Shown: positions 4,325-38,646 of the stretch, piece by piece
How positions within the stretch are numbered: position 1 is the stretch's first letter
Layout of the letters: every line of letters starts with the position of its first letter
Origin: Pegea sp. RAD2-039
Taxonomy: Eukaryota; Chordata; Thaliacea; Salpida; Salpidae
Assembly (NCBI GenBank): GCA_034620365.1
Contig: JAQGEQ010000071.1
Coordinates: 5,208,001-5,272,000, forward strand
Direction of reading: 5' to 3'
Length of the DNA: 64,000 bases
The notes under the pieces: model-generated
Told to the model about the DNA's origin: nothing
Databases searched by the model: none
What the model saw: only the letters and a program-made list of their open reading frames with translations
Made by a program: the position numbers and the translations under genes

Positions 4325-5904
4325 TTAATTCATATCAGAACTCTTGCTGAAAAAGGAAAGAATGGAGGTTTGTTTGATAGTGCTTTCTCGTTTCTTAGCA
4401 GAAGACTCACGGAATTGGACAAGTTGTGACACACTTTCTGATGTGGCTTCTGGTTGACAACGATAGTAGGCTAAGTAATCATCCATTTTCTGCATGGCTT
4501 CACCGTGAGAGAATGGACACTTTGATGATTGTGGAACATCATTTTCGTCTTCAACCTCCTCATCCACCTTTTTTTCGTTGTTTCCAGAAATCAGTGCAGC
4601 AATTACTTGCTCGTCCATGTGCTCATACCCAGGACCATCGCAACTCATCCAGTTTTGGATACCATCGTCTGTAAATGTGATATTCATCCTCGAAAATTGC
4701 TGGATAAACTCACTGTTTGTAGTTTCTGCCGAAGGGTCACTGTTTTGCATGGAAGAGCTTGGTAATGGCATCAATTTCTTCCATGAGTTTCTTATAGCAG
4801 TAGTTGTTACCATATCCCAAGCGGATGCAACGGTATCTACAATTTTGATCATATCAATTCTTTTCAAAACGTCCTATATGGTGAATTGCGATACAAGATC
4901 TCTCAGAATCGACTTTTTATAAACCTTTTTGATAAATTCGAGCACACCTTGATCCATTGGTTGTATGAGAGCAGTAACATTTGGAGGCAGAAACTTGGCA
5001 GTGATTTTGCCATCAGCTGATATAAGTTCGTCCTCACTTGGATGGGCAGAGCAATTGTCGAGGAACAAAATGGCCCTTTCTTCTTGTCCATGTTGTCTCA
5101 GCTTTTGTTTCGTTTCGGGAACAAAACAGTTAAAAAAACAATTTCGGAAAATATCACGGTCGACCCAAACATTTGCTTGATTTTGGTATACAACCGGCAA
5201 CGCCTCCTTGTTGAGATTACGAAAACAACGCGGATTTTTAGCCTTACCAATTAAAAATAAAGGTTATTAAATAAAGGTTATATTATTGTTCCACTGGCAT
5301 TTGCACAGGCATTTATTGTCACCCTGTTTTTTGCCTTTTTCGTTCCATCCGGCCGGTTGTGTACTGATGCCAAGATATGTCCAGGCAACATTCTAAAGTA
5401 CAATCCGGTTTCATCGCAATTAAATATTTGATGTTCGGAGTAAACCTCGGTTATGCCAGAAGCTTCATTAACAAATTGCTCAGCAGATGAGCTATCTGAA
5501 CTTAAGTTCTCACCGCATGTTTTGAAATTCCTCAAGCCGAATCTCCCGCAAAACCTCCATTGAAACCCCGAACTTGCTAAAAAGGGCTTAGAGTGTTCAC
5601 CGTAAATTAAACGGTGGAACTCAGAGGCCTTTTTTAACAGTATTGGACCAGTTACTGGACAGCCCTTCTCACGTTCTTGACGAAACCAGATGTAAAGGGC
5701 GCTGTCCAGCCTGTCAAGTAGCCTCCCTTTACTTTTTTGGCCGTTTTAGCGGTTCCAGTTAGTCCCAGCTCCTCCTTTTCGGCTTTAAACTGTTTAAACT
5801 TCTCCTTGCTTCTCAAAATGTCGTTCAAAGTTGGCTTGCTTATGAAACCGATCGGATTAGGGAGAGACCGGATTAGCAGCGGCCGTTATAGCGAGGATGC
5901 ACTG
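4325..5904 (-). pseudogene. Decayed Tigger/pogo (Tc1-mariner) transposase
   Basis: A DNA-transposon transposase of the pogo/Tigger/jerky group, read right to left. Visible pieces in order are a helix-turn-helix region (KPTLNDILRSKEKF), a CENP-B-type second DNA-binding region (RLDSALYIWFRQEREKGCPV, GFQWRFCGRFGLRNF), and DDE catalytic blocks (FNCDETGLYFRMLP; FLDNCSAHP; LPPNVTALIQPMDQGV). The C-terminus ends in a QTSILSFF-type tail. It is broken by a one-base deletion near 5735, a short duplication of an aacctttattt unit near 5260-5275 that shifts frame, and an in-frame TAG at 4874-4876. The N-terminal part is also missing, because the right terminal repeat leads almost directly into the middle of the HTH region. 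A dead copy. Confidence 0.88.
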
Positions 5905-5906
5905 TA
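5853..5906 (-). mobile_element. Right terminal inverted repeat of the Tigger copy with TA target site
   Basis: On the minus strand the element begins CAGTGCATCCTCGCTATAAC, the typical Tigger-family terminal repeat pattern, and is bordered by TA (5905-5906). No matching inverted copy is visible left of 4325, so the 3' end seems truncated or decayed. Confidence 0.75.
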
Positions 5907-6466
5907 GCTAATAAATACAAGGTTTTCTTTTAAATCAAAAAAATTTGAGCAAGTTTAAATTTCAGTTAAGAAAACTCATATGAAAAGCTAGTAATGTATA
6001 TCAACCACCGATTAGAATTGATAACGCATCTTTTTCGAAAGTTATACGAATTTATAAATTATTTGTAAGTATTTCTACTTACTAAAATCATCCATTATTA
6101 TACCTCGAAGTAATTCATTGTATTCCCAATTCTCTAAATACTATAATATTATCTATTTTCATTAAATTTTTATAGTTAAATAACAATTCAAAAAAATAAT
6201 TTTGCTAATGAAGGTTCATCAAATAAATTTGTGGGCTTTCAAGAACATTTAAGCTAGCTTTTAAAACTTCATAAAACTCATATTTATCAAATTTATGTAA
6301 ATCCATTATTCTTCTGCTTTCATAAAATTCTTCAACAAGTTTTTGATGTTTATTGAAAGCTAAAATATCTTAAAGAGCTTAAATAAAAAACGTTTGAAGT
6401 AAAAGTTTAAGTTATAAATAAAGTTAGAGAAATTTTCACTGCAAAGATTACTTTTTTACAAGATTG
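5907..6466. other. Intergenic, no gene seen
   Basis: AT-rich, stop-filled in all frames; nothing recognised. Confidence 0.6.
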
Positions 6467-25960: not shown

Positions 25961-26302
25961 CGGTAATATTTGTACTGACTTAAATTCTATCAAGCAATTT
26001 TGCTTTAAATTGAAGTCATAATTGCAGCAGTTGTATTTTCTCTACTTATACAACAGCATAAATACACAAAAAAAAAAAGATTTGAAAATTGCCTCAAGCT
26101 ATTTGAAAATGCTAAAATTTCTCCTAGAGAAGAAAGAAAAAGGTTGCTAGTGATAAAAAGATGCAGTAAGTCTTAAATTAGTCTTTGCATCGTTTTGCAG
26201 GTAATATTTCAATTTCATTTTGAAACATTGAGGTGGTAAAATCTAGTTCTTTTCTTGCTTAATGATTTATGCTTTCACAGGTCTTCAAATCAAAGTAGTA
26301 AA

Positions 26303-29300
26303 ATGATGAAACAAATTCAAATAGTTTCGTTAATATCTTTAATACTTTTGATAGCTATACAAAATGGTTCTACTGCTTCGATATCAAAAAAGTTTGGTTT
26401 TATTTTTGGTTAATTAAAATAATGAATTGTAAATTGTCTATTGCTTTAAAGGTTTTTATAATAAATTTAAATAACATAATTAAAATTTCACTTATTTACC
26501 TATAAATTAATTTAAACATTTTATTTCAAAGGAACTACAATATCTCGGCAAATGAAAATATCCTTGATTCTAATGCAAGTTTTACTATGTTCAATTTTAT
26601 GAATGAAAGCATTTTTATAACTTACAATCTAACTAAAAATGATGAAGTTGTCGATGAAGGATTTGGAGTTCTGTTTAAAGGTTTCCTTTTTAACTTTTAA
26701 CATACTTTGTATGAAAAAAAAAACTTTGAAGTAAAAAAATTACTTGTTGTTTAGAAAATAAAACTTTGAAATATGTTTATTGACCAAAAATTGAATTGTT
26801 TACATTTTTAAAAGATCTAAAAAGTAAATTAGACAATTTTTAAGATTATAAGTAGTCTTAAATTACCAATGCAGTTAGTTTTTGTAAATGAAACAAATAA
26901 ATACATTTTTAGTAAAGTCATTAAGTTCTGTTTACAACATAGCAAACTAATTTTATTAATGGTTTTTAGTTTTTCGAGTTTCAATTGAATTTTAAAACAA
27001 ATTTAAAAGATTTGAGAAATTCTTTACTTTTATAATAATTTTAACATCTTCAAAATATTAAGTCACATTTAAAACTTTTTTATTTGAAGGTAAAATTAGT
27101 CAAGAATGGAATATGTGCAAGGTACACGATGGTTTAACCAATGAAAGATTACTTCACTAACTGTTAATTTAAACTCTTTGATTTTTAGATATATAGAAGC
27201 GTTGATAATGATCAATCATACAATCTTGAGGTTAAAGGATATGACATCAAGACACGAAAAGAGTTATTTTCAGAAAATCTTTACCTTGATTTCAAATTAA
27301 GGTGAGTTTTTACATACCAGCAACCAATAACAGTTGAAGTAATGCCACTAATCTACCAGTGAAATGGTAACGATACCAAAAAAGCTGTTGTTGGACCAGC
27401 AACTCACTATAACCATAGACGGCTTCTTCAATCAGTCAGCTGAATATCAAATAACATTTTTTGACGGAACTAATCAGTATAAACGCAATGGAAGCTTACC
27501 ACAAGGTAAGTCTCTCGGATTTTTCTGTTCTAAAACTGAATTGCCTTTTCTAAGGTCGAACTACACAAGTGAACGTGACCAAGGTAAGTGGCAACGCCCT
27601 TAAACGCGCGTCAATTCGATTGTAGCTTTCCGATTTTGTTGTAGGTACTTAGCTACGACTCATCTAAATTTGTGCTTGATGTTAACGTCATCAGCGCTAA
27701 TGACGAATTGAGTTGGATTCAAAATGATTTTGAAATAGTGAATCAGTAAGAGAAGTTTCTCTTTGAAGAAACAATAGTTTAAAATGTTGAAATGTTATAC
27801 AGAGATTACGACTTCAAGATAACTCGTAATCTGAAAAGTGGAAGCGATGTAGTGTTCGAATTTTCCAGTTATATTAATCGCTCAGTTTTTATTGAGTATT
27901 CTTTCATATCACTTGACGACAAAATCACATTGGTTGATACATTCGTATTAGAAGCAGGTTAAAAGCTTTAGAGTAACCTTTATTTTGACGCAAACATAAA
28001 AAATTACTTTCAGATGAAGTCAAAAGTTTTAAAATCTTCCAAGTAAGTTATTCTGTTTATCAAATTTCTATGGGTTCATAAACAAAGTTTTCTTTGTAGA
28101 TTCCCTACAATTATACCGGTTCTACGAATTTTACTTTCCAGTTAAAAGGTTATGACTTGGAAAGTATTTCTATGAAATTGATGTTTATGGAAACCGTTAA
28201 AGATTTCACTTTTGATCAACTGTAAGTTTGATTCGAGTTATTTTTTCATGAAATCAACTAATATTTACTTTTAGTGACTATAAAATTGAAGTTTCTAATG
28301 CTGAGAAATCAGATCAAATAATGATGTACAACAATATGAACAACACAATGAAATTTGTTTCTTTCTTTTTCTCTGATAACTTTAAAGCTTATGGAATGGA
28401 AGAGAGGTTTTTGTTACCAGGTACCCGCTTAGATATTGAATAAAAACTAGTAAACTGTTACATACTTAAAATAATTGATTGAACAATTTTTAAGGGGGCT
28501 TATCTAAAACAAGCTTAAAGTTAAGTTTAAAGCGATTTAAAAACTAGAACAATCTAGAATTTTAGTTGTAATGTTTGTGGTTTTAATCTACAGGTGAACA
28601 ACAAAACTTTGCTGTCACAACAGTAAGTTTTAAGCATTTTCTTTGCAAATAACTCACTGAAATATATTACTTTGAATGAAATTATTTCTATTAGATTCCA
28701 AAACGATATGAAAGTTCGGAAAGTTTTCAACTGTCGGTTGCAGGATACAGTAATGACACAAACCAGTTAATCTTCTCAAAAACCTTTGAAAATTTCTCTG
28801 TTTACCAAACGTAAACTTTCTCAGACTAATTTGCAAATCAAGTTCAAAGCTTGAAACTATTGCAGAGATTATGATATTAAGATATCAAAAGAAATAGAAC
28901 CAGGAAAGATGATCAATTTATCTGTTAGAAATAACAACACCAATATTTCGTTTACCACTTTTAAATTCTCTCTATACCTTGATGACAATTTAGTATCCAA
29001 TGGCAGCTTTTCACTGTTTCCAGGTAATCTAAATACTTAAGTCATTACATAGACTCTTATTTCATAAATTTTCTTTTGTTTAGGAGCAATTTCTGAGAGC
29101 TCTATATTCGAAGTGAGGATTGTTTGATATAATCTTTGTGATTTTTAAACTTAACTGGTTTTATTCTTAAAGGTTCCAGAAAATTTTGATTTGTTGTCGC
29201 GATTTACTTTCATTATTTCCGGATTTCATTCTACAACTGGTAAAGAAATTTTCAATGAAGTTGTCACCAACTTTGAATATCAAAAGTATTTAAAACTTTT

Positions 29301-32300
29301 TATACAATTTTGACAACTCTGTCATAACATCAGAAATATAGATATTGTATCATATTTAGTAAAATTGAAACTTTTATTTTGTTTCATATCATTCTTCTTT
29401 TCTATTTTATCTAATTTATTAATTCAAACTATTCAGACCGAAGTTGGATTTCTCTATTTCTAAGGCTATTTACCCGGGAGAATCTATTTCTTTTGAGGCA
29501 GTTAGTAATATAGCCATATTTGCCAATTATACTTTTACGTCAAATGATGGCAGGTTGTCTTTCTCAGGCAAACTTCTTATGAGCCCAGGTAAGAAGCTTT
29601 ATCTTAGGTTAAGCTGATGATTCATATCACATTTCACATTTAATTACATTTAATTTTTTTTGTAGGAGATAGAGTTGAAAAATTTATTGGAGAGGTAAAG
29701 ATAAATGTAACAAAATTACTAAAAGCAGAAACACAACTTTTTACAGTTACCACGACTATATTCAGGATCCAAAATTTTTACTTTTATTTTTGATGGATAT
29801 GATTATGTGGCAAATAAAAAAGTCTTCAGTGAATATCATAATGACTTCAACTTCTTTGATGCCGAGTAATTTTAATAAAATTTAACAGTTTTTTAATTCA
29901 ATCGATAAAGCAAGTTTTTAATTCGAAGCAGTTGTTTCACTGGCTTCATATTTTGAGTGATAACATAACTTCAAAATCATCATTTTAAATTAAAAAATAT
30001 ACTTAAAGGTTTTTGATTAATAATCAACCAATGAGTGAACTTCAAGTTCTTTTATTTATCATCTTAGCTTCACAGACTTCTCAAGCCAATCTTATTTTGG
30101 TCATATTAGTTATAAATCTCCAACTAATTTCAAAACTTACGAACTCACATCTCTAACTTTTCATTCAGAAAATATTCATCTTTATTTTTTACTTCTTTTT
30201 TGTTACAATATCTTATAAAACAACTTATTAAATGAAATTTATTCAAAATCTCTTTTCAACATTTTATACGATTTTATTTCAAAATAAAACAAATTGTAAA
30301 AATAATTTCTAAACTTTGTAGATCAACAAAATGTGAAATTTCGAGGATAATATATCCAAATAAAGAGATTTCTTTCACAATCGAAAACTTGATAAAAGAT
30401 GAAAGTCTTCTGCTTAACTACACTTTCATATCTGATGACAACAGTCTTAGCTTCAGACGTAGCAACCTATCTATAGATGCAGGTAAATTTTTGTCATTTT
30501 CATCAACAATTCAAATCTTTCACGTCTTCTTTCATCTTTAGGATCAACAAAAACCATCGAAATTGGCAAAGTATTTCACAATCTTCAACTTTATCATTTT
30601 CTACTCATCATACTTTCATCAGATCTTGCGTTCTTACAAAGGATCTCGCAACTTCCGCCTGGAATACGATATCTACAACTCAAACTCTAAGGAATTTATC
30701 TCCACCAAGATTAAAAATGGTATCTTCTTAGAAATGGGGTAAAGATTAACTCTTCTTTTCTTTCCCTCTTCTCTTTACTTTCTTCCCTCAGGACATACTC
30801 AATCTTTATCCCGAAGATAATCCGACCAGGATTCGATATCACTTTTTCGGTTTCTACTACTAGAGGATCAGTTATGATGATACTTTTATATGATTTTTAT
30901 TCAGAAGATTTTGAATTTAGCATGATGGGTGATGCAGTTATTAATCAAGGTGAGAGTCTTCATCAAATCTTCTAATTCCTTTTCATGATCTTTATCTCTT
31001 TACTCTTTGTAAAAAGCTTTCACGAAATCTTAATTTAATTCTGAATGTTTACGTAAAATTAAACTGAAACATAAACAAATGTTGCTATGGTTACAGACGA
31101 AACGCGATTCTTCGTCATTGGCCAGGTCAGTTTCTCTTCACTTGCAGCAGAGGATCAATAATATTTGCCATCAGGTTCCTAGGGATTACACTGGATCAAC
31201 TAATTTCCACTTCAATATTACCGCTTTTGATGATCTGTCATCTGATGTCGTGTTCTACAACGAAACCAGTGATTTTGTTTACGATAAAAAATCAGTTTCT
31301 ATTCTAATTGAAACTGACCAGTCAGTGTACCACCCGCAACAGACAAGTAGGCTTTTGTTTACTTCCAACAAAACATCTTTCATCTTTTTTCTCGTATCAT
31401 AGTCAAGTTCAGAGCTCTCTGTTTGAGTCCTGATCTTCTGCCGGTAACTGGAGATGTGCAGTATTCATTCATTGACCCACAAGGCAACTCCTTTAACAAA
31501 CTTTCAACTAAGGCTTTTCTAACTTATGGAGTGATCTCTGATGAAATGCCTTTACACAAATACTCTCAAGAAGGAGAGTGGACTATACAAGTCCGATACG
31601 AGGTGCGAGTGTCTTTTCCTAACATTCATTTGATGTGATGTTACGTTTAGGGTTACTCAGAAGAGTTGAAAGTGAATGTGACGTCAGAAAAAGCAGATAA
31701 ATTTTCAGTGGATGTCTTTGCAGCAGAATACTTCTATAACAAGATGAAAGGATTTAATTTGAAGATCAATGCAAGGTAAAGATCATCAATTTCGCTGAAG
31801 TAGATCTTATTAGATGCTTGTTGATCAGATATCCATCTGGTGAAGCTGTAAGAGGAAGAGCAAGACTCATGGCGGAGATTAGAAGTTCTAATAGACGATT
31901 GAATCAAAAGATGTTTAAGCCTAAAATATTCAGACAAACTTTCGAAGTAATTAAATCTTATTACTGAAAAAATGTCTTCATCGAATCGTTCTTCAAAAAG
32001 ATCTTCTTTAAATAAGCTGATCTAAAGATTAAATTGATCTTTTGTAGAACTTTAACGGCGATCAGCAATTCTTCTTAAGCAAACAAACCATCAAATCTCT
32101 TGGATGGAAATCTTGGACTGATGTAACTCTACTTTTATCTGTGTCTGTCACAGAACAAGGAAGTGACGTCACATATAGCGACGAAACAACGGTGCAATTG
32201 AAACGAAGTAACATCAAACTTGATGTAGTTTACCGATCAGATGTGGTGAAACGTGGAATGAAGTACTCTGCTTTTGTAAGTAATACTTCCCACTAAATGA

Positions 32301-35300
32301 CGTCATCAGTAGTCTTAGTGACCAGTACGATTTCGCGGTTGGTGTAACTTTAAAAATGTTGCCTTAGATTAAAGTCTCTGAACAAGATGGAAAGCCTTTA
32401 ATGGAAGAAGATCGAAGAATGAATGATCTTATCGTTGATGTAGAATATAGGTTGAAGAATTACTGATAAAAATCGATCTCAGTTTGAAATGAAATTTTAA
32501 TTATTAGATATCCAGTTCAGGGTTTCTTTAAAGCTCTTATCTCTAATCCAAACTGGGCAAAACTTTTGGTTTATACGCCTCCGAAGACACAACGTTATGT
32601 GCTTAAGATTCCTTTGAATGGAGAAATTGATTTTACAATGGTGGTTGATGATAGCGAGTTTGAATATGTTAGTTTCAGAGTAAGTAGAATTAGAAAATTT
32701 GATTAATCAATTTGAAATTTTTCAAAAATATTTACTACTGAAAAGTTCGTTTACAATTTTTCAAATAATAATTTCATAAAAATAAAAGAAAAAACTTTAA
32801 GCTATGTACACCAATAAAATGCAATTGGTTTATTGAATTTGTAGTGCTTCACAAACACAACTGCTCAATTGTATGGTTTATCTGAAACCTCTCAATGGGT
32901 TGCTACACCTTTCAAATCACCTTCAAACTCATATGTTCAAGTTACAACAGATAATCAGAGATATCAACTTGGTGATAGAATTAATGTTGATGTAAATTTC
33001 AGTGAAAATGTGAAATATTTCAGAGTAATGGTAAGTTTATTCTCTCAACATCTCACTATTTTGTAATCTTTAATCTTTTGTAGCTTATGTCTCGAGGCAT
33101 GATCGTTTCAGATAAATCTTACAGCTACGAAAAAGCTGAAAAGAGTTTTCAATTGAAAATTGATACTAATTATCATATGTCCCCAATTCTACGGATTGTT
33201 GTTTCCAATGTTCGAGAAGACGGAGAGATCGTTGCAGACTATACTCAAATTATTTTGGTGGAAAATCTAATTAATAAGGTAAGAATCAAACAAAAGAAAA
33301 GTTACATCAACCAATCAGAACTTAAACATTCTATCAACTTCTTTTTTTCTATAATGTCATCAGGTCGACATGGAAACCTTTCAAAATAATTTTGGATTTG
33401 ATGAAAAGTCCAGCATCAAAATAGAAACAGAATTTCCGATTTCTTTTATTGGAATCAGTGCTTCAAATGAAGATCAATCTTCTTACAACAAAATTACAAA
33501 ACAAAGAGTAAGTTTCGTGCTATTTTGAAGATTAGCTTCCGCATACTGATCTAAACAGCAAATTCCGCCGGTTAATTGCTGCAGCCAGTGAAAAGCAGTA
33601 ACTGCTTGGGGCTAATCATGGTTTCCGTCTTCATGTCTAACTCAGAAGAAATATTGAAAACTTCATAATAAACTTTTGGTTAATTTTTTCCCCGAACTTT
33701 TTTGTAGGTGGTTGAAGATTTGAAGAAGTATTCACCCACAGATCAAGACCTCGACAATGAAAAGTGGTGGACTTGGACAAGGTCCATGGCTTCTAATGCT
33801 GCTTCTACAAGATCAGTTTTTGATCAATCTAATCTCAATGTTCTGACCGATGAAACAGTGTTTGCTTCGAAACAAGGTACTCACCACTTATCACTTCTCA
33901 CGTGATTACAATCGACCAATCACAGACCGAATAAAATACCGACGACCAAAAACAAAGAAACTTGAGAAAACTCAAAAGTTTTCTTCAACTAACTTCCCTA
34001 ATTCATGGATTTGGAATCAGACTAAAACGTAAACATCACTTACTTGCATCTTCACCTTACAACTAAATGTCTTGTAGAGATCAGAAGATCAACTTCTTTA
34101 ACCAAACAACTCCGAATCTAACAGGACTCTACTCCATCAACGCCTTTGTTCTTTCCAACAACGGATTGAGTCTTTCTGAAGATAAGCAAGTAAGTGGCAA
34201 CATCTTCATCTACGATCTTCATCTTCTGATCTAGATCAAGATCTTTGAATACTTTTATCTTAACTTGGATCTTCCCTACACAGCTATCAGGGGCGAAATA
34301 GTGGTTGTCAAGGCAACCATCCATAACTATTACAAAGAAGATCTTCCGGTAAGATCATCTCTTACATCTTTCACATCGCTAAGATCTTCTTCAGGTCAAT
34401 CTCTACCTTGCTCAATCGGACCAATACGAACCAGTGGTACTAGGTGATGTCACTTACAGTGGTCCAGTTAGATGGGTGACCGCGTCTTCTGGCAAGACAG
34501 TGATTGCTACTTTTCCAATCAATATGACGCGACTTGGTGACGTCACCATTCGCTTAGTGACGCGATCCAACAAAGGAAGTCGAACATTTGCTCGCAACAT
34601 CTTCGTTGAGGTCAGTTACAACTGATCGCGATGTGATGACGTCACATCCGCCATTGCAGCCGGAAGGACTTCGATACTGCTACAGCACCTCGAAAATCTT
34701 CACCAACAACTGGAACTCTTCATCCTCAGACACCAACTTCACAATCCGTTTCCCTGACAACACAGTTGAAGGATCGCGTCATGCGCGCGTCTTCTTATCC
34801 GGTGAGTGGAATGAGGACTACTAGAAATGTACAGCTAACCTCTTTGTGTGTCAGGACACCTTATGACCAATACCATCGAGCATATGGAAAAGTTGCTTGA
34901 TTTACCACGTCTAGAAGCGACTATGAATATGATGGACTTTGTGACCGCAACTATGGTCCAGAGACTGTCCCAAGCAGACGAACAGATGTCTGAAAGAGCC
35001 GTCAAGTTGATGGAAGTCAGCTTCCTAAACCAAAAGAAGTTGGAATCTCTTCCCGATGCGTGACGTCATCAAATAATCTTCTCGTTGTAGCTTCAGGAAC
35101 TTTGATGGATCTTACAGCTTCTTCGGGAGCAATAAAAGAGCGGGAAGTAGTTGGCTCACTGCTTTGGTGTGTCGAAGCTTCGCGATAAACAATTTGGGAG
35201 AAGATTTGATGAAATCAGGATTCGATTATCTGATGAGTCAACAAGATTCTAACGGATCGTTTAAAGAGCTGTCGGATGTTGTTCATCCTTCTATGGAGGT

Positions 35301-38300
35301 GATGACGTCATCATAGATGTGTCGCGCTTACTTCATTATTTTTATTTCAATTTCCAGAATACTCCTAACAACAAAACGCGTCTCACTTCCCTCGTTGTCA
35401 TAGCAATGAGTGAATCAAAGATAGGGATGAAGATTAAAGAAGTGAGTCAGTTGGTTGTTGATGTTGACTTCTTCATTTGCATATTTATATGTTCCCCAGA
35501 GGCTCAATAGACCTTTAGAATCTGCTTTAGAGTATTTGGAGTCACAGATCGAACAGATTAAAGATGATCAATACTCGTTGTCATTAGTTACCTACGCTTT
35601 CGCTACTGCTAGCAAGGCCAAGCTTGCTGAAAAAACTTTGAATTATTTCGAACAATTCGCCCAATTTGATAACAAAAGTGAAAATGAGGGTCGAGATCTG
35701 GATGATGAAGATGAAGAGTTGATGTTTTGGAGTGTAGATGATCAACAAAATTCACAATTTCGCAACAAATCTATTTATCCAGTAGCTAACAGCAGAAGTG
35801 TAGAGATGTCATCTTATGCTCTAATGATTTACACTCAAATGAATTTGAAAGAAAAAGCAAGAAGAGTAATGAATTGGTTGATAAAGCATCGGAATTCAAA
35901 CGGGGGCTTTTCAGAACCTTATGTGAGTGTCACTGATGGTTACTAGAAACTATATTTCTGAACGAAACTTCTTGTAGAGTACTGCTCTAGGGATTCAAGC
36001 TCTTTCAATGTATATAGAATACATTGGTATGAATATGTATCAGTATTATGATCCAATGAAAGTAGAAATGTCTCACTCAAAAGATGCTCAGTACAAAACT
36101 CAACAATTCTTCTATCAAAATAATATTTTTAAACTTTTTGAGTATGAGGTAAGTGAATCTTCTTTTAATTATAAGTTAATGTTAATTACTGAATCATAGC
36201 TACCAAACAAAAACGGAGAATTGTTGATTAAAACTAGCGGTGAAGGAAGGGTTGTTGCTCAAATAAACGTTTGTTATAACTTAAACAAATCGATTTATAA
36301 AGAACAAACGTTTAACTGCTCAAAACAAATCTCAAAAGTTGATATGAGAAACGTAAATGTGGAATATTGTTGCAGGTATATGATTGCATCAACTGTAAAA
36401 CAGATTATTTCAAATACGTCATCTTTTTAGATTAAGATCAGAAGAAGACAAAAGTGGCCTCTTTCTTTTCCAACTTCAACCATTCAGTGGTTTCGTTATC
36501 TCGCCTGAAGAGCAAGCAAGAAAAAACCGTATGGCATTAGCCATAGATTTTGACAACGGTCTTTTTAATATATACTTCTCACAGGTAATCCAACATTTTT
36601 CAAAACCAACAGGTTTACAGTCTGAACAAAAATCTCCCAAGTTTTTAAAATATATTTCAATTTTCAGATGTTTTTCTATTTTTAACATTTCTAAGCATTT
36701 TTAATTAATAAAAATGTTTAAAATGACAACATCTAATATGCTAGTACATAAACTTATGTCTTTATTTTCAAATACTTAAAATTATTGAAATATTTTCGGT
36801 TTAACTTTGTTTCTTTCATTTTCAGCTTTATTATGAAAAAAATACTTGTATGAAAGTTGTGGTGGAAAGAAACGAAAAAATTGCTGACAACAAACCAGCA
36901 TACATAATTGCACAAAATTATTTTTCTCCAGGTACTTTTAAACTCAGGCTAAAACCTCATAAAACATCACAACTAAATAAGTTAGATATTTGAAATAATT
37001 AAATGAAGACACAAGCTATAAATGAATTTTGATTTGAATTAGATTAATCAATTTTATGTTTATCATCTTAGAACAAAAGAACATCGATTTTTATCGAGCG
37101 GAGGGATTCGAAGATCTTGGAGCTTGTAGTGTCTGTGGAATGGATTGCTTTGGTTGTCCTGGTAACTTAATTTCTTTCCTAATAGTTGGTTGCTGTAATG
37201 AAATATTAAAATTAATTTTTTTTACTGACTTATTAAAAAAATCAATTTAAAAATGTGTTAAAAAATTATAAAAGTAGTTTGACTGTAAAAATCTACTTCG
37301 TGAATTTCGAAAAACTCCAAAAAGAAAGACTGAAGTTTCATAAATGATCAAATGACTTCTTAGGAGCTCGCTTGAGTGAATGGATGGAGAAAACTCCTTG
37401 CTTGTCTTGTGAACAGAAGTTTTCTACCTGGCATCGTGTTTGCATCGATCCAAGTTTAAATGTTCCAGTTCAAGCTCGCTTTTGTTTAGAACAAGAAGTC
37501 GAAGAAAAGAGAAGATGCGGCAATTCATCCGCTTTTCCAATCTGTCCAGGTTTGAAAATGATGCAATATTGTGTCTTTAATTTGCGGCAATTTTTGTTTC
37601 GACCATTTTAGACAGTCATGATGGTTTGTGGAAAGTGCTACCAACTTATATGGATCACGACTCACGTGATCAAACTCAGCTTTGCAAGCTAAGACCCTCT
37701 TACTTTGCTCCTTACTTTTCATCTAATTGGGAAACCGCCTCGAAGCAAGGAATTCCTGGTGAGTATTTAAACCTGAAAATAAACATCAATTTACAGCAAC
37801 TGGGTGCAGGAAGCGATCTACAACTACCAAATGCTTATATGGAATGTAAACTTGACTCACGACCAGCATACGAAGGCAACTTTTCACTTTCATTACTTGT
37901 CTATATTGAATCCTTCCAAATGCATGAAGAAGGTGTCATTTTTGCTTACGGAGATGAAGGCAAACCAGCGATCTTTAAGTTCTGGCATCATTCAATGTAA
38001 GTCTTCGGTTATACCTCTATGAGATATTTGATTAATTTTGTTTGGTAGGTTCGGCCAACCGATGATATTTCGAATGAGTTTCAATAATTTTATTTATACA
38101 ATTGGGCCGGTAGATGGCAGGTAAGAGCAGGATTTTGCTGAAACTTGATCTTAATTTGATCTTTATGAAGAAAATTACTTCGAAAATGGACACATGTAAT
38201 GATTACATGGAACGTTAATGAAACTCTACTTTATATCAACGGTACTTCAACTGGTTTTAGTTTCCACTTTCCAACATCTAGGAAGCAGGAAGAACCAGAA

Positions 38301-38646
38301 AATCCAATCCTTTTCTTAGGACGGGACACTGAAAGAAAATACAAAAGTAGATTTTCTACTATTGCAAATTAATAAGCTAAATTCAATAAATTACTTCATA
38401 GAAACTCTAAACGGTTGGGTTTCATCTTTGGACTTTTGGAGTAGAACTTTAAGTGAAAAAGAAGCAGCAGGTGTCTACAAATTTTATGAGCCTGCTCTGA
38501 TAGAGTCTAGAGATCAAAAAGAAGATGCGGAACTTCCTTTTAATGTTCTCCGTCATATATCTCCATCAGATTACAAGAAGTGTTTCAATAAAACATCGTC
38601 TCTTAAGACACTTTTTCATCGTCAACTATGCGAAGAGGAGTATTAA
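26303..38646 (+). CDS. Secreted macroglobulin/complement (TEP) family protein with eight MG1-like domains, TSP1-like and LamG-like tail
   Basis: A 55-exon gene whose exons total 7452 nt (2483 residues); all phases join. The order is: signal peptide (VSLISLILLIAIQNGSTAS); eight MG1-like repeats (about residues 30-820); MG2 onward of an A2M/C3/CD109-type core; TED-like domain (from about 1610) without thioester; receptor-binding-type domain (about 1971-2116); Cys-rich TSP1-like domain (about 2147-2209); and LamG/pentraxin-like domain (about 2258-2420). No transmembrane segment or GPI signal is evident at the end (RQLCEEEY). A2M-family blocks include VYHPQQTVKFRALCLSP, FPNSWIWNQTKT, LPYTAIRGEIVVVKA and NFDGSYSFFG. 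The family acts in innate immunity, protease trapping or junction building; the role here is unknown. An upstream in-frame ATG at 26161 spliced to 26281 would add nine residues. I know no described protein with this architecture. Confidence 0.88.
26532..27301 (+). repeat. MG1-like repeat 1
   Basis: Exons 26532-26680 (149 nt), 27090-27121 (32 nt) and 27189-27301 (113 nt). This is the first cassette and the only one with a 32-nt rather than 29-nt middle exon. Confidence 0.8.
27360..27745 (+). repeat. MG1-like repeat 2
   Basis: Exons 27360-27505 (146 nt), 27555-27583 (29 nt, encoding RTTQVNVTK) and 27645-27745 (101 nt). Phases 2-1-0-2 as in the other cassettes. Confidence 0.85.
27803..28221 (+). 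repeat. MG1-like repeat 3
   Basis: Exons 27803-27957 (155 nt), 28014-28042 (29 nt, DEVKSFKIFQ) and 28100-28221 (122 nt, starting IPYNYTGSTNF). Confidence 0.85.
28275..28810 (+). repeat. MG1-like repeat 4
   Basis: Exons 28275-28420 (146 nt), 28594-28622 (29 nt, GEQQNFAVTT) and 28695-28810 (116 nt, starting IPKRYESSESF). The GEQQN string resembles a thioester site by chance only: no Cys and the wrong domain. Confidence 0.85.
28866..29285 (+). repeat. MG1-like repeat 5
   Basis: Exons 28866-29023 (158 nt), 29084-29112 (29 nt, GAISESSIFE) and 29173-29285 (113 nt, starting VPENFDLLSRF). The opening DYDIKISKEI closely resembles DYDFKITRNL of repeat 3. Confidence 0.85.
29437..29865 (+). repeat. MG1-like repeat 6
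   Basis: Exons 29437-29588 (152 nt), 29666-29694 (29 nt, GDRVEKFIGE) and 29747-29865 (119 nt, starting LPRLYSGSKIF). Confidence 0.85.
30322..30738 (+). repeat. MG1-like repeat 7
   Basis: Exons 30322-30482 (161 nt), 30542-30570 (29 nt, GSTKTIEIGK) and 30623-30738 (116 nt, starting ILRSYKGSRNF). Confidence 0.85.
30792..31346 (+). repeat. MG1-like repeat 8, joined to the MG2 start
   Basis: Exons 30792-30949 (158 nt), 31097-31125 (29 nt, DETRFFVIGQ) and 31175-31346 (172 nt). The third exon begins VPRDYTGSTNF like the other repeats, then continues into the MG2 signature (SILIETDQSVYHPQQT). This places the eighth repeat exactly where A2M has its single MG1. Confidence 0.87.
31403..36931 (+). other. 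A2M-family core of the TEP gene: MG2 to receptor-binding domain
   Basis: Exons: 31403-31602, 31651-31775, 31829-31946, 32048-32275, 32368-32450, 32508-32679, 32845-33030, 33084-33278, 33364-33507, 33708-33876, 33926-34028, 34078-34189, 34235-34348, 34395-34610, 34660-34801, 34855-35059, 35097-35298, 35358-35441, 35500-35922, 35978-36148, 36200-36375, 36431-36584, 36826-36931. The order of conserved blocks is that of alpha-2-macroglobulin. The stretch encoded by 33708-34028 lies where the bait or anaphylatoxin region would be; no six-Cys anaphylatoxin is present. The receptor-binding-type domain is visible as SGFVISPEEQA and CMKVVVERNEK. Confidence 0.8.
34906..34947 (+). other. Thioester site, motif replaced
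   Basis: In thioester proteins this position reads P-x-GCGEQNM. Here the conserved context is LLDLPRLEATMNMMDF: the Pro, the Asn-Met and the Phe are kept, while Cys-Gly-Glu-Gln is replaced by Glu-Ala-Thr-Met (about residues 1630-1633). No covalent thioester can form. Confidence 0.85.
37072..37758 (+). other. Cys-rich linker and TSP1-like domain of the TEP gene
   Basis: Exons 37072-37161, 37364-37549 and 37612-37758. The first has the Cys cluster CSVCGMDCFGC. The second reads RLSEWMEKTPCLSCEQKF, HRVC, CLEQEVEEKRRCGNSS and PICP, the spacing of a thrombospondin type-1 repeat (W, CxxC, RxC, C, C, CP), without the WxxW ladder. The third has no recognised fold. Confidence 0.65.
37810..38646 (+). 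other. LamG/pentraxin-like C-terminal domain of the TEP gene
   Basis: Exons 37810-37996, 38049-38120, 38171-38346 and 38402-38646. The beta-sandwich signature of concanavalin-like domains is visible: NFSLSLLVYIES, GVIFAYG, WTHVMITWNVNETLLYINGT, PILFLGRD, LNGWVSSLDFWSRTLSEKE. The last 60 residues are an unassigned tail. Confidence 0.72.

Follow-up and report, generated by a model that had tools for sequence, protein, structure and literature searches.

How can a thioester-containing protein (TEP), a member of a family known for its conserved domain order, come to carry eight copies of its first macroglobulin domain (MG1) and lose its thioester, and what might such a protein do? The question is raised by a gene of the tunicate Pegea sp. 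RAD2-039 (GenBank assembly GCA_034620365.1), which lies in a stretch of 64,000 nucleotides of contig JAQGEQ010000071.1 (positions 5,208,001 to 5,272,000 of the forward strand), hereafter the window, whose first letter is position 1 in what follows. The gene, here called the window TEP, occupies 26303-38646 on the + strand, as do all its features given below, and its model was curated manually on the basis of splice sites and reading frames. The gene comprises 55 exons that encode 2476 residues and a stop codon with no internal stops, all 54 introns are of the GT-AG type, every junction is in phase, and neither a frameshift nor a stop interrupts the 7.4 kb of coding sequence. A preliminary description of the same DNA had the number of exons and their phases right, and the length (about 2483 residues) slightly wrong. 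As judged from the sequences, what is new here is the combination of eight MG1 units with a lost thioester, which is common to the window TEP and a second protein, P0001.

P0001 was found by searching about 5.8 billion proteins, which yielded 4 matches among 3151 candidates. It aligns with the window TEP at 36% identity across 100% of the query (1668 bits); the remaining three matches reach 71-75 bits, and both of those inspected are of bacterial type. P0001 has 2527 residues and is encoded on a 7858-base JGI contig, which is probably a transcript, because the coding sequence fills nearly all of it and contains no introns. We infer that it comes from a tunicate, because of the family search and the tree grouping described below, which also point to a tunicate as the source of the window. 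When the splice junctions of the window TEP were checked against P0001, 41 of the 54 had no gaps within a span of 4 residues ahead of the splice point and 5 residues behind it, and the remaining 13 had 1-10 gap letters around it. Since P0001 matches the window TEP from end to end, with arm, core and tail together, the two sequences mark the latter as a single gene encoding a single protein, in agreement with the in-phase one-gene model proposed earlier; and since a second protein has the same build, the eight-MG1 architecture is a genuine variant rather than an error of gene prediction.

The arm, residues 31-821, comprises eight units at the position held by the single MG1 in other TEPs. Every unit is encoded by a three-exon cassette (A, B and C) with uniform phases: exon A (146-161 nt) leads from phase 2 to 1, exon B (29 nt, or 32 in unit 1) from phase 1 to 0, and, in units 1-7, exon C (101-122 nt) from phase 0 to 2; the exon C of unit 8 extends into MG2. 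Since the domain border of units 1-7 coincides with the phase-2 end of exon C, their cassette is 2-2 symmetrical and could therefore be copied without a frameshift. The units are located at 26532-27301 (unit 1, exons 2-4), 27360-27745 (unit 2, exons 5-7), 27803-28221 (unit 3, exons 8-10), 28275-28810 (unit 4, exons 11-13), 28866-29285 (unit 5, exons 14-16), 29437-29865 (unit 6, exons 17-19), 30322-30738 (unit 7, exons 20-22) and 30792-31288 (unit 8, exons 23-25, the last one in its first part). Twelve paralogue loci of the Pegea genome (L017-L028), modelled by an automatic gene finder and uncurated, provide the comparison; the L018 model is translated in a wrong frame. Unit 8 is the counterpart of their single MG1: exon 25 continues into MG2 as it does in the paralogues, whose predicted models have an A-B-C triplet (A 155-161 nt, B 29 nt) immediately before MG2 and lack the second border intron, after exon C. 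One A-B-C set is present at each of ten loci (L018-L026 and L028), the single MG1 being less firm at L020, L026 and L028, where no signal-peptide exon was found, and exon A of L028 being incomplete. A scan of about 5.8 kb upstream of L026 (on contig C177), the only locus so scanned, passed no additional MG1 exons.

A hidden Markov model (HMM) built from six paralogue MG1 domains gave 96.8 bits and 7 hits on residues 1-820 of the window TEP, and 200 shuffled versions of these residues yielded 7.6 bits at most for a single domain. The highest scores belong to units 8 (45.9 bits), 7 (20.4), 4 (18.8), 3 (16.2) and 5 (8.9), and units 7 and 8 also match their P0001 counterparts with z-scores of 16.5 and 20.0, respectively. 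Units 1 and 6 (1.0 bit each) and unit 2, the most divergent, which was missed, are linked to the arm by their exon phases and by their similarity to other units (z up to 6.9 for unit 1 and 12.7 for unit 6; 4.5-4.7 for unit 2 against unit 7). In P0001, only units 8 (38.3 bits) and 6 (9.1) exceed 7.6 bits. Unit 5 of P0001 was folded, with a predicted local distance difference test (pLDDT) of 95. A plain Foldseek search with this model was unspecific, ranking translocon and bacterial proteins at the top; a second look with VIA-align placed TEP1 first (11.6 and 11.1) and CD109 at 10.5, with the unrelated GbpA (10.4) and factor XIII (10.1) close to CD109. The best structural match is formed by residues 22-120 of the insect TEP1, and the N-terminal (MG1) domain of CD109 is among the best ones. 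From this one folded domain, the repeat units are predicted to have the MG fold, matching the MG1 of solved members. The exon cassettes, the HMM scores set against the shuffles and the predicted fold bear out the eight MG1-type units of the preliminary description, and a structure prediction of the kind it had called for is MG-like in the one P0001 unit modelled.

The scope of the searches for further arms should be kept in mind. The N-terminal 797 residues of the window TEP have no match at E<=10 among PDB sequences, and residues 1-900 of P0001, used as a query, matched P0001 alone. Unit 3 recovered only the window exons from the Pegea assembly in a search that missed the MG1 exons of the paralogues too, so that other arrays are possible; the search that found P0001 also missed the ascidian one-MG1 relatives and cannot show that ascidians are without an eight-MG1 gene. 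In both proteins the arm is richer in N-X-S/T sequons than the remainder (2.78 per 100 residues vs 1.21 after the arm in the window TEP, 1.81 vs 0.60 in P0001), and it contains two Cys residues in the window TEP and none in P0001.

After the arm, Pfam domains follow one another in the order of the TEP / A2M superfamily, each above its cut-off, which confirms the membership claimed for the protein: MG2 (residues 828-912), MG3 (924-1002), A2M_BRD (1180-1299), A2M (PF00207, 1407-1493), the thioester domain (TED, 1611-1919), A2M_recep (PF07677, 2038-2117) and Laminin_G_3 (PF13385, 2269-2416). In the DNA, MG2-MG6 and the bait-region or linker stretch, which includes MG2, MG3 and A2M_BRD, extend over 31289-34028 (exons 25-36), the A2M domain over 34003-34403 (exons 36-39), TED (TED_complement, 3.8e-45) over 34855-36013, and MG8, the receptor-binding domain, over 36474-37094 (exons 47-49). 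The former thioester site (34911-34925) reads LEATM, opposite GCGEQ in the alignment with CD109 and opposite ATAEQ in that with P0001; the latter has lost the Cys and retained the Gln, and the window TEP has lost both. The pattern G[CSAT][GA]EQN is absent from all six frames of the window. It is present at ten of the twelve paralogue loci (L017, L018, L019, L020, L021, L022, L023, L025, L026 and L028) the two exceptions being L024, whose predicted gene skips TED, and the distantly related L027. Both alignments and the motif scan agree with the earlier claim that the thioester is gone, and the window TEP, having no GCGEQ, does not count among the thioester-active TEPs.

The tail, on the other hand, is not a peculiarity of this protein, as had been supposed when the LamG and TSP1-like modules were taken for additions to it: both are common to tunicate TEPs with one MG1 and a thioester. 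The window TEP has the CxxC...CxxC cluster and TSP1-like module (37125-37549, exons 49-50) and the LamG / ConA-like domain (37863-38463, exons 52-55; Pfam 4.2e-10) after MG8, in the same order as the tunicate TSP1-LamG TEPs, and lacks their single MG1 and intact thioester. A search with a thioester-bearing paralogue as the query scored 463 proteins at E<=0.001 out of 7989, and seven of the 120 matches listed have a Pfam LamG domain, namely those of Clavelina (2), Phallusia, Ciona and Styela (2) and one JGI protein. Nine relatives were inspected, these seven together with one further Styela protein and a fragment from Ciona. All nine have GCGEQ and eight have one clear MG1, the ninth being the fragment, which lacks that end, and the eight with both ends (JGI protein included) are 1704-1854 residues long. 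In the Pegea genome, all five genes on contig C249 and three of the four on C278 have tail exons, which makes 8 of the 10 paralogue loci; their best E-values range from 7e-5 (C278) to 0.07 (C249:578940). The C177 paralogue has the CxxC cluster only, and nothing more in the following 5.4 kb; tail, thioester and one MG1 occur together at 7 of the 10 loci. One further tail site was found on C278 (235574), and C77, on which no TEP was noticed, has two weak LamG-tail matches (E 0.013 and 0.12) at G000:C77:41722-42413.

The assignment of the module before LamG calls for more caution. Pfam TSP1 models matched it in none of the four proteins scanned (the window TEP, P0001 and two paralogues). Five modules cut out of tunicate and JGI proteins gave four weak matches, three of them at 22-23 bits, and only the Ciona one exceeds the TSP1 cut-off (23.4 vs 21.6 bits); TSP_1 scores on the whole proteins of Ciona (15.7 bits) and Phallusia (14.8) are below it. 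The module can be called TSP1-like by resemblance and descent, as judged from sequence, and not by a clean match. The HMM search proposed in the preliminary description thus recovered MG, TED and LamG and returned no Pfam match for TSP1, and of the tail described there LamG stands on a Pfam match and the TSP1-like part on its resemblance to ascidian modules.

Comparison of the core with solved structures placed CD109 first (1.8e-91), followed by TEP1 (4.7e-48), A2M (1.4e-47), C5 (9.6e-32) and C3 (2.1e-31), by which sequence measure the window TEP belongs to the CD109-like branch; the tree, whose outgroups are CD109-like only, does not address placement with CD109 as opposed to A2M/C3. In this tree of 21 rows, the window TEP and P0001 form a clade (100/100) within a 14-row group (100/99) that includes Ciona, Phallusia, Clavelina, the JGI protein and seven other Pegea TEP genes, and three Styela rows group with the four CD109 outgroups. 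The window TEP therefore falls inside the tunicate TSP1-LamG family and apart from the CD109 outgroups, its exact place within the group not being fixed. Sequences omitted from the tree are the C10 gene (canonical CD109/A2M-type, with a long branch), C6, the Ciona fragment and three more paralogues.

The known relatives differ in instructive ways. The LamG-tailed TEPs of Ciona ('alpha-2-macroglobulin homologue') and Phallusia (A2M homolog) and the 'CD109 antigen-like' proteins of Clavelina and Styela resemble the window TEP in the MG2-MG8 core, the CxxC cluster and the LamG tail, those of Ciona, Phallusia and Clavelina also in the TSP1-like module, and the unit HMM finds their MG1 strongly similar to unit 8; however, they have one MG1, an intact GCGEQ and at most 1854 residues vs 2476. 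Human CD109, the best solved relative across the core, has one MG1, no known LamG or TSP1 tail and, unlike the window TEP, GCGEQ in the alignment. Insect TEP1 and Mcr have one MG1 and no known LamG; Mcr lacks the thioester and has an LDLa domain, which found no match in the Pfam scan of the window TEP. A title cited in PMC5969219 names Mcr a transmembrane protein; the last 60 residues of the window TEP are polar by eye. Bacterial A2M proteins (ECAM, Salmonella A2M) have an N-terminus lengthened by two extra MG domains, according to PMC9156758, whereas the window TEP is an animal protein with seven extra MG1-type units and like-phased exon cassettes. Complement C5 and C3 share the macroglobulin core, and C5 likewise lacks the thioester (PMC8960428).

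Some paralogues deserve mention in their own right. The predicted gene of L024 (G000:C278:199000-208999), a LamG-TEP, bypasses the whole TED, which may be a second route of TED loss or a sign of a damaged gene. L018-L021 (G000:C249:520000-578000) are four near-alike thioester-bearing LamG-TEP genes, two per strand, resembling a large inverted repeat. In the uncurated prediction at L022 and L033 (G000:C278:155000-167500), a long insert of Pro-Ser-Gly repeats sits in the MG4/MG5 region, and L017 (G000:C10:278000-287999), which is of the CD109/A2M type with GCGEQ, has its A2M domain in a single open frame, which at 232 codons exceeds that of the other members.

The preliminary description knew of no protein with this domain order. 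That is true of the eightfold MG1 with the lost thioester and not of the order MG1...TED...TSP1-LamG, which is already in the databases in LamG-tailed tunicate TEPs named CD109-like or A2M homologue. If our reading is true, the window TEP and P0001 are to our knowledge the first animal TEPs grown by MG1 amplification. The exon phases show a possible route by which a conserved domain order can be broken: a three-exon MG1 cassette, flanked by phase-2 introns on both sides in units 1-7, is now present eightfold in a protein without a reactive centre. The pair would exemplify a defence molecule recruited for a different purpose before their two lineages split, and it offers a way to learn what roles TED and MG1 have when covalent chemistry is no longer available. 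A search confined to open-access literature listed no title or opening of an abstract concerned with LamG-bearing TEPs or with a repetition of MG1 in TEPs of animals, and the accessible part of a paper on snail TEPs (PMC9363628) makes no mention of MG1, laminin or thrombospondin.

As to function, we lean somewhat towards a secreted, CD109-like tunicate TEP that works outside the cell without a thioester, either as a scaffold or in non-covalent recognition, much as insect Mcr may be regarded. Such a protein would be secreted; without the thioester and probably monomeric, it could not couple covalently to microbes or proteases; its LamG end would bind a fixed ligand such as a glycan, the matrix or a protein of the cell surface; and the ring of macroglobulin domains would, together with the glycosylated eight-MG1 arm, make a long spacer with a lateral contact surface. 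The monomeric A2M-family inhibitors A2ML1 and rat A1I3 require the thioester, on which tetramers do not depend (PMC9156758), so that an inhibitor role would need an oligomer. By analogy, Drosophila Mcr, with roles in septate junctions and immunity (PMC5969219), would be the precedent closest in kind. A more specific version is tentative: a complement-type molecule may have been converted into a long-armed, thioester-free adhesion or recognition protein with LamG as its business end and an arm giving reach or lateral polymers, possibly in the tunic, the blood or an epithelial barrier. The elongated shape of the arm and the change from a trap to a matrix protein, both proposed in the preliminary description, likewise stay at the level of conjecture.

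Constraint between the window TEP and P0001 is consistent with a LamG-led role. Identity is 65% in LamG, the best kept part, and 50% in the TSP1-like module, 45-49% in MG2-MG6 (48% from MG2 to the start of MG4), 35% in CUB-MG8 and 29-31% in TED, which is among the less kept parts; in the arm it is 29% for unit 1, 17-22% for units 2-5, 31% for unit 6, 36% for unit 7 and 45% for unit 8. Among thioester-bearing paralogues the ranking of LamG and TED is reversed, with 48-74% in TED (6 pairs of 4 genes), 36-42% from MG2 to the start of MG4 (3 pairs) and 28% in LamG in the single pair compared.

Several points weigh against the scaffold or recognition role or against the evidence behind it. Tetramers such as A2M can inhibit proteases without covalent coupling (PMC9156758). 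The contrast between LamG and TED sets one orthologous pair against paralogues of different age in one genome, and its LamG pair includes the TED-less L024 and leaves out the C177 paralogue. Units 1 and 6 do not rise above the shuffles in the HMM search, nor was unit 2 detected in it, and the structure of the arm was modelled for one P0001 domain only. An AlphaFold model of the tail reached pLDDT 35 and was discarded, and the tree program flags an unusual letter make-up in the window TEP, P0001, the JGI protein and C249_233k. Finally, the fast-evolving basic stretch that precedes FPNSWIW at the bait position of the window TEP could, by its sequence, be a cleavage site.

This last point leads to the alternative that survives best, unlikely as we consider it: a non-covalent protease inhibitor akin to the ovostatins, which are not known to have a thioester either, in which the bait would be cut, the ring would close on the protease and the MG1 arm would form enclosing oligomers. 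The macroglobulin, bait and TED domains are retained, the basic stretch is only 14% identical over 22 residues between the window TEP and P0001, and the tetrameric family members mentioned above need no covalent coupling; however, the nearest branch is CD109-like, and the strongest constraint falls on LamG rather than on the core. We think it improbable that the window TEP acts as a C5-like complement component, a thioester-less paralogue that is cleaved and then joins a complex started by thioester-bearing ones. Such paralogues do exist in the same genome, and duplicated C3-like proteins have repeatedly lost the thioester (PMC8960428), but ANATO and C345C/NTR, which complement C3/C5 would lead one to expect, were not matched at E<=1 by the Pfam scan, and no furin-like site (RX[KR]R) was found. 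A decaying, functionless duplicate under relaxed constraint is very improbable: TED is indeed kept at 31% vs 48-74% among the thioester-bearing paralogues, yet the reading frame is intact throughout, and MG2-MG6 and LamG retain the identities given above. The least credible alternative, a gene-model artefact in which splicing of the model fuses an MG1-repeat gene to a separate TEP gene, could appeal to a model derived from DNA alone, of which an automatic gene finder partly trained on it got 46 of 55 exons exactly, but was rejected on the end-to-end match and junction alignment with P0001, in which arm, core and tail are encoded together, without introns, on one contig, and on exon 25, common to unit 8 and MG2 here as in the paralogues.

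At the margins of the window TEP, exon 1 (26303-26391), which ends in phase 2, encodes what was judged by eye to be a signal peptide (MMKQIQIVSLISLILLIAIQNGSTAS...), and an intron in the 5' untranslated region is suggested upstream of it, because an acceptor-like AG is found at 26279-26280; at the other end, a C-terminal extension and the stop codon take up 38464-38646. Elsewhere in the genome, a tandem cluster of at least four let-7-like hairpins was noticed (L029-L031, G000:C42:53785-54357 and around), three of which were scored with Rfam and fall below the let-7 cut-off; such a cluster agrees with a bilaterian source. A rotifer spliced-leader sequence had no matches, and COX1 was not found in the assembly. 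In the window itself, three near-identical sequences, which we take to be thiopurine-methyltransferase-like, lie upstream of the window TEP gene at about 15225, 17400 and 23039 (+), and a predicted gene at 4325-6095 (-) presumably resembles a Tigger/pogo-type DNA transposase.

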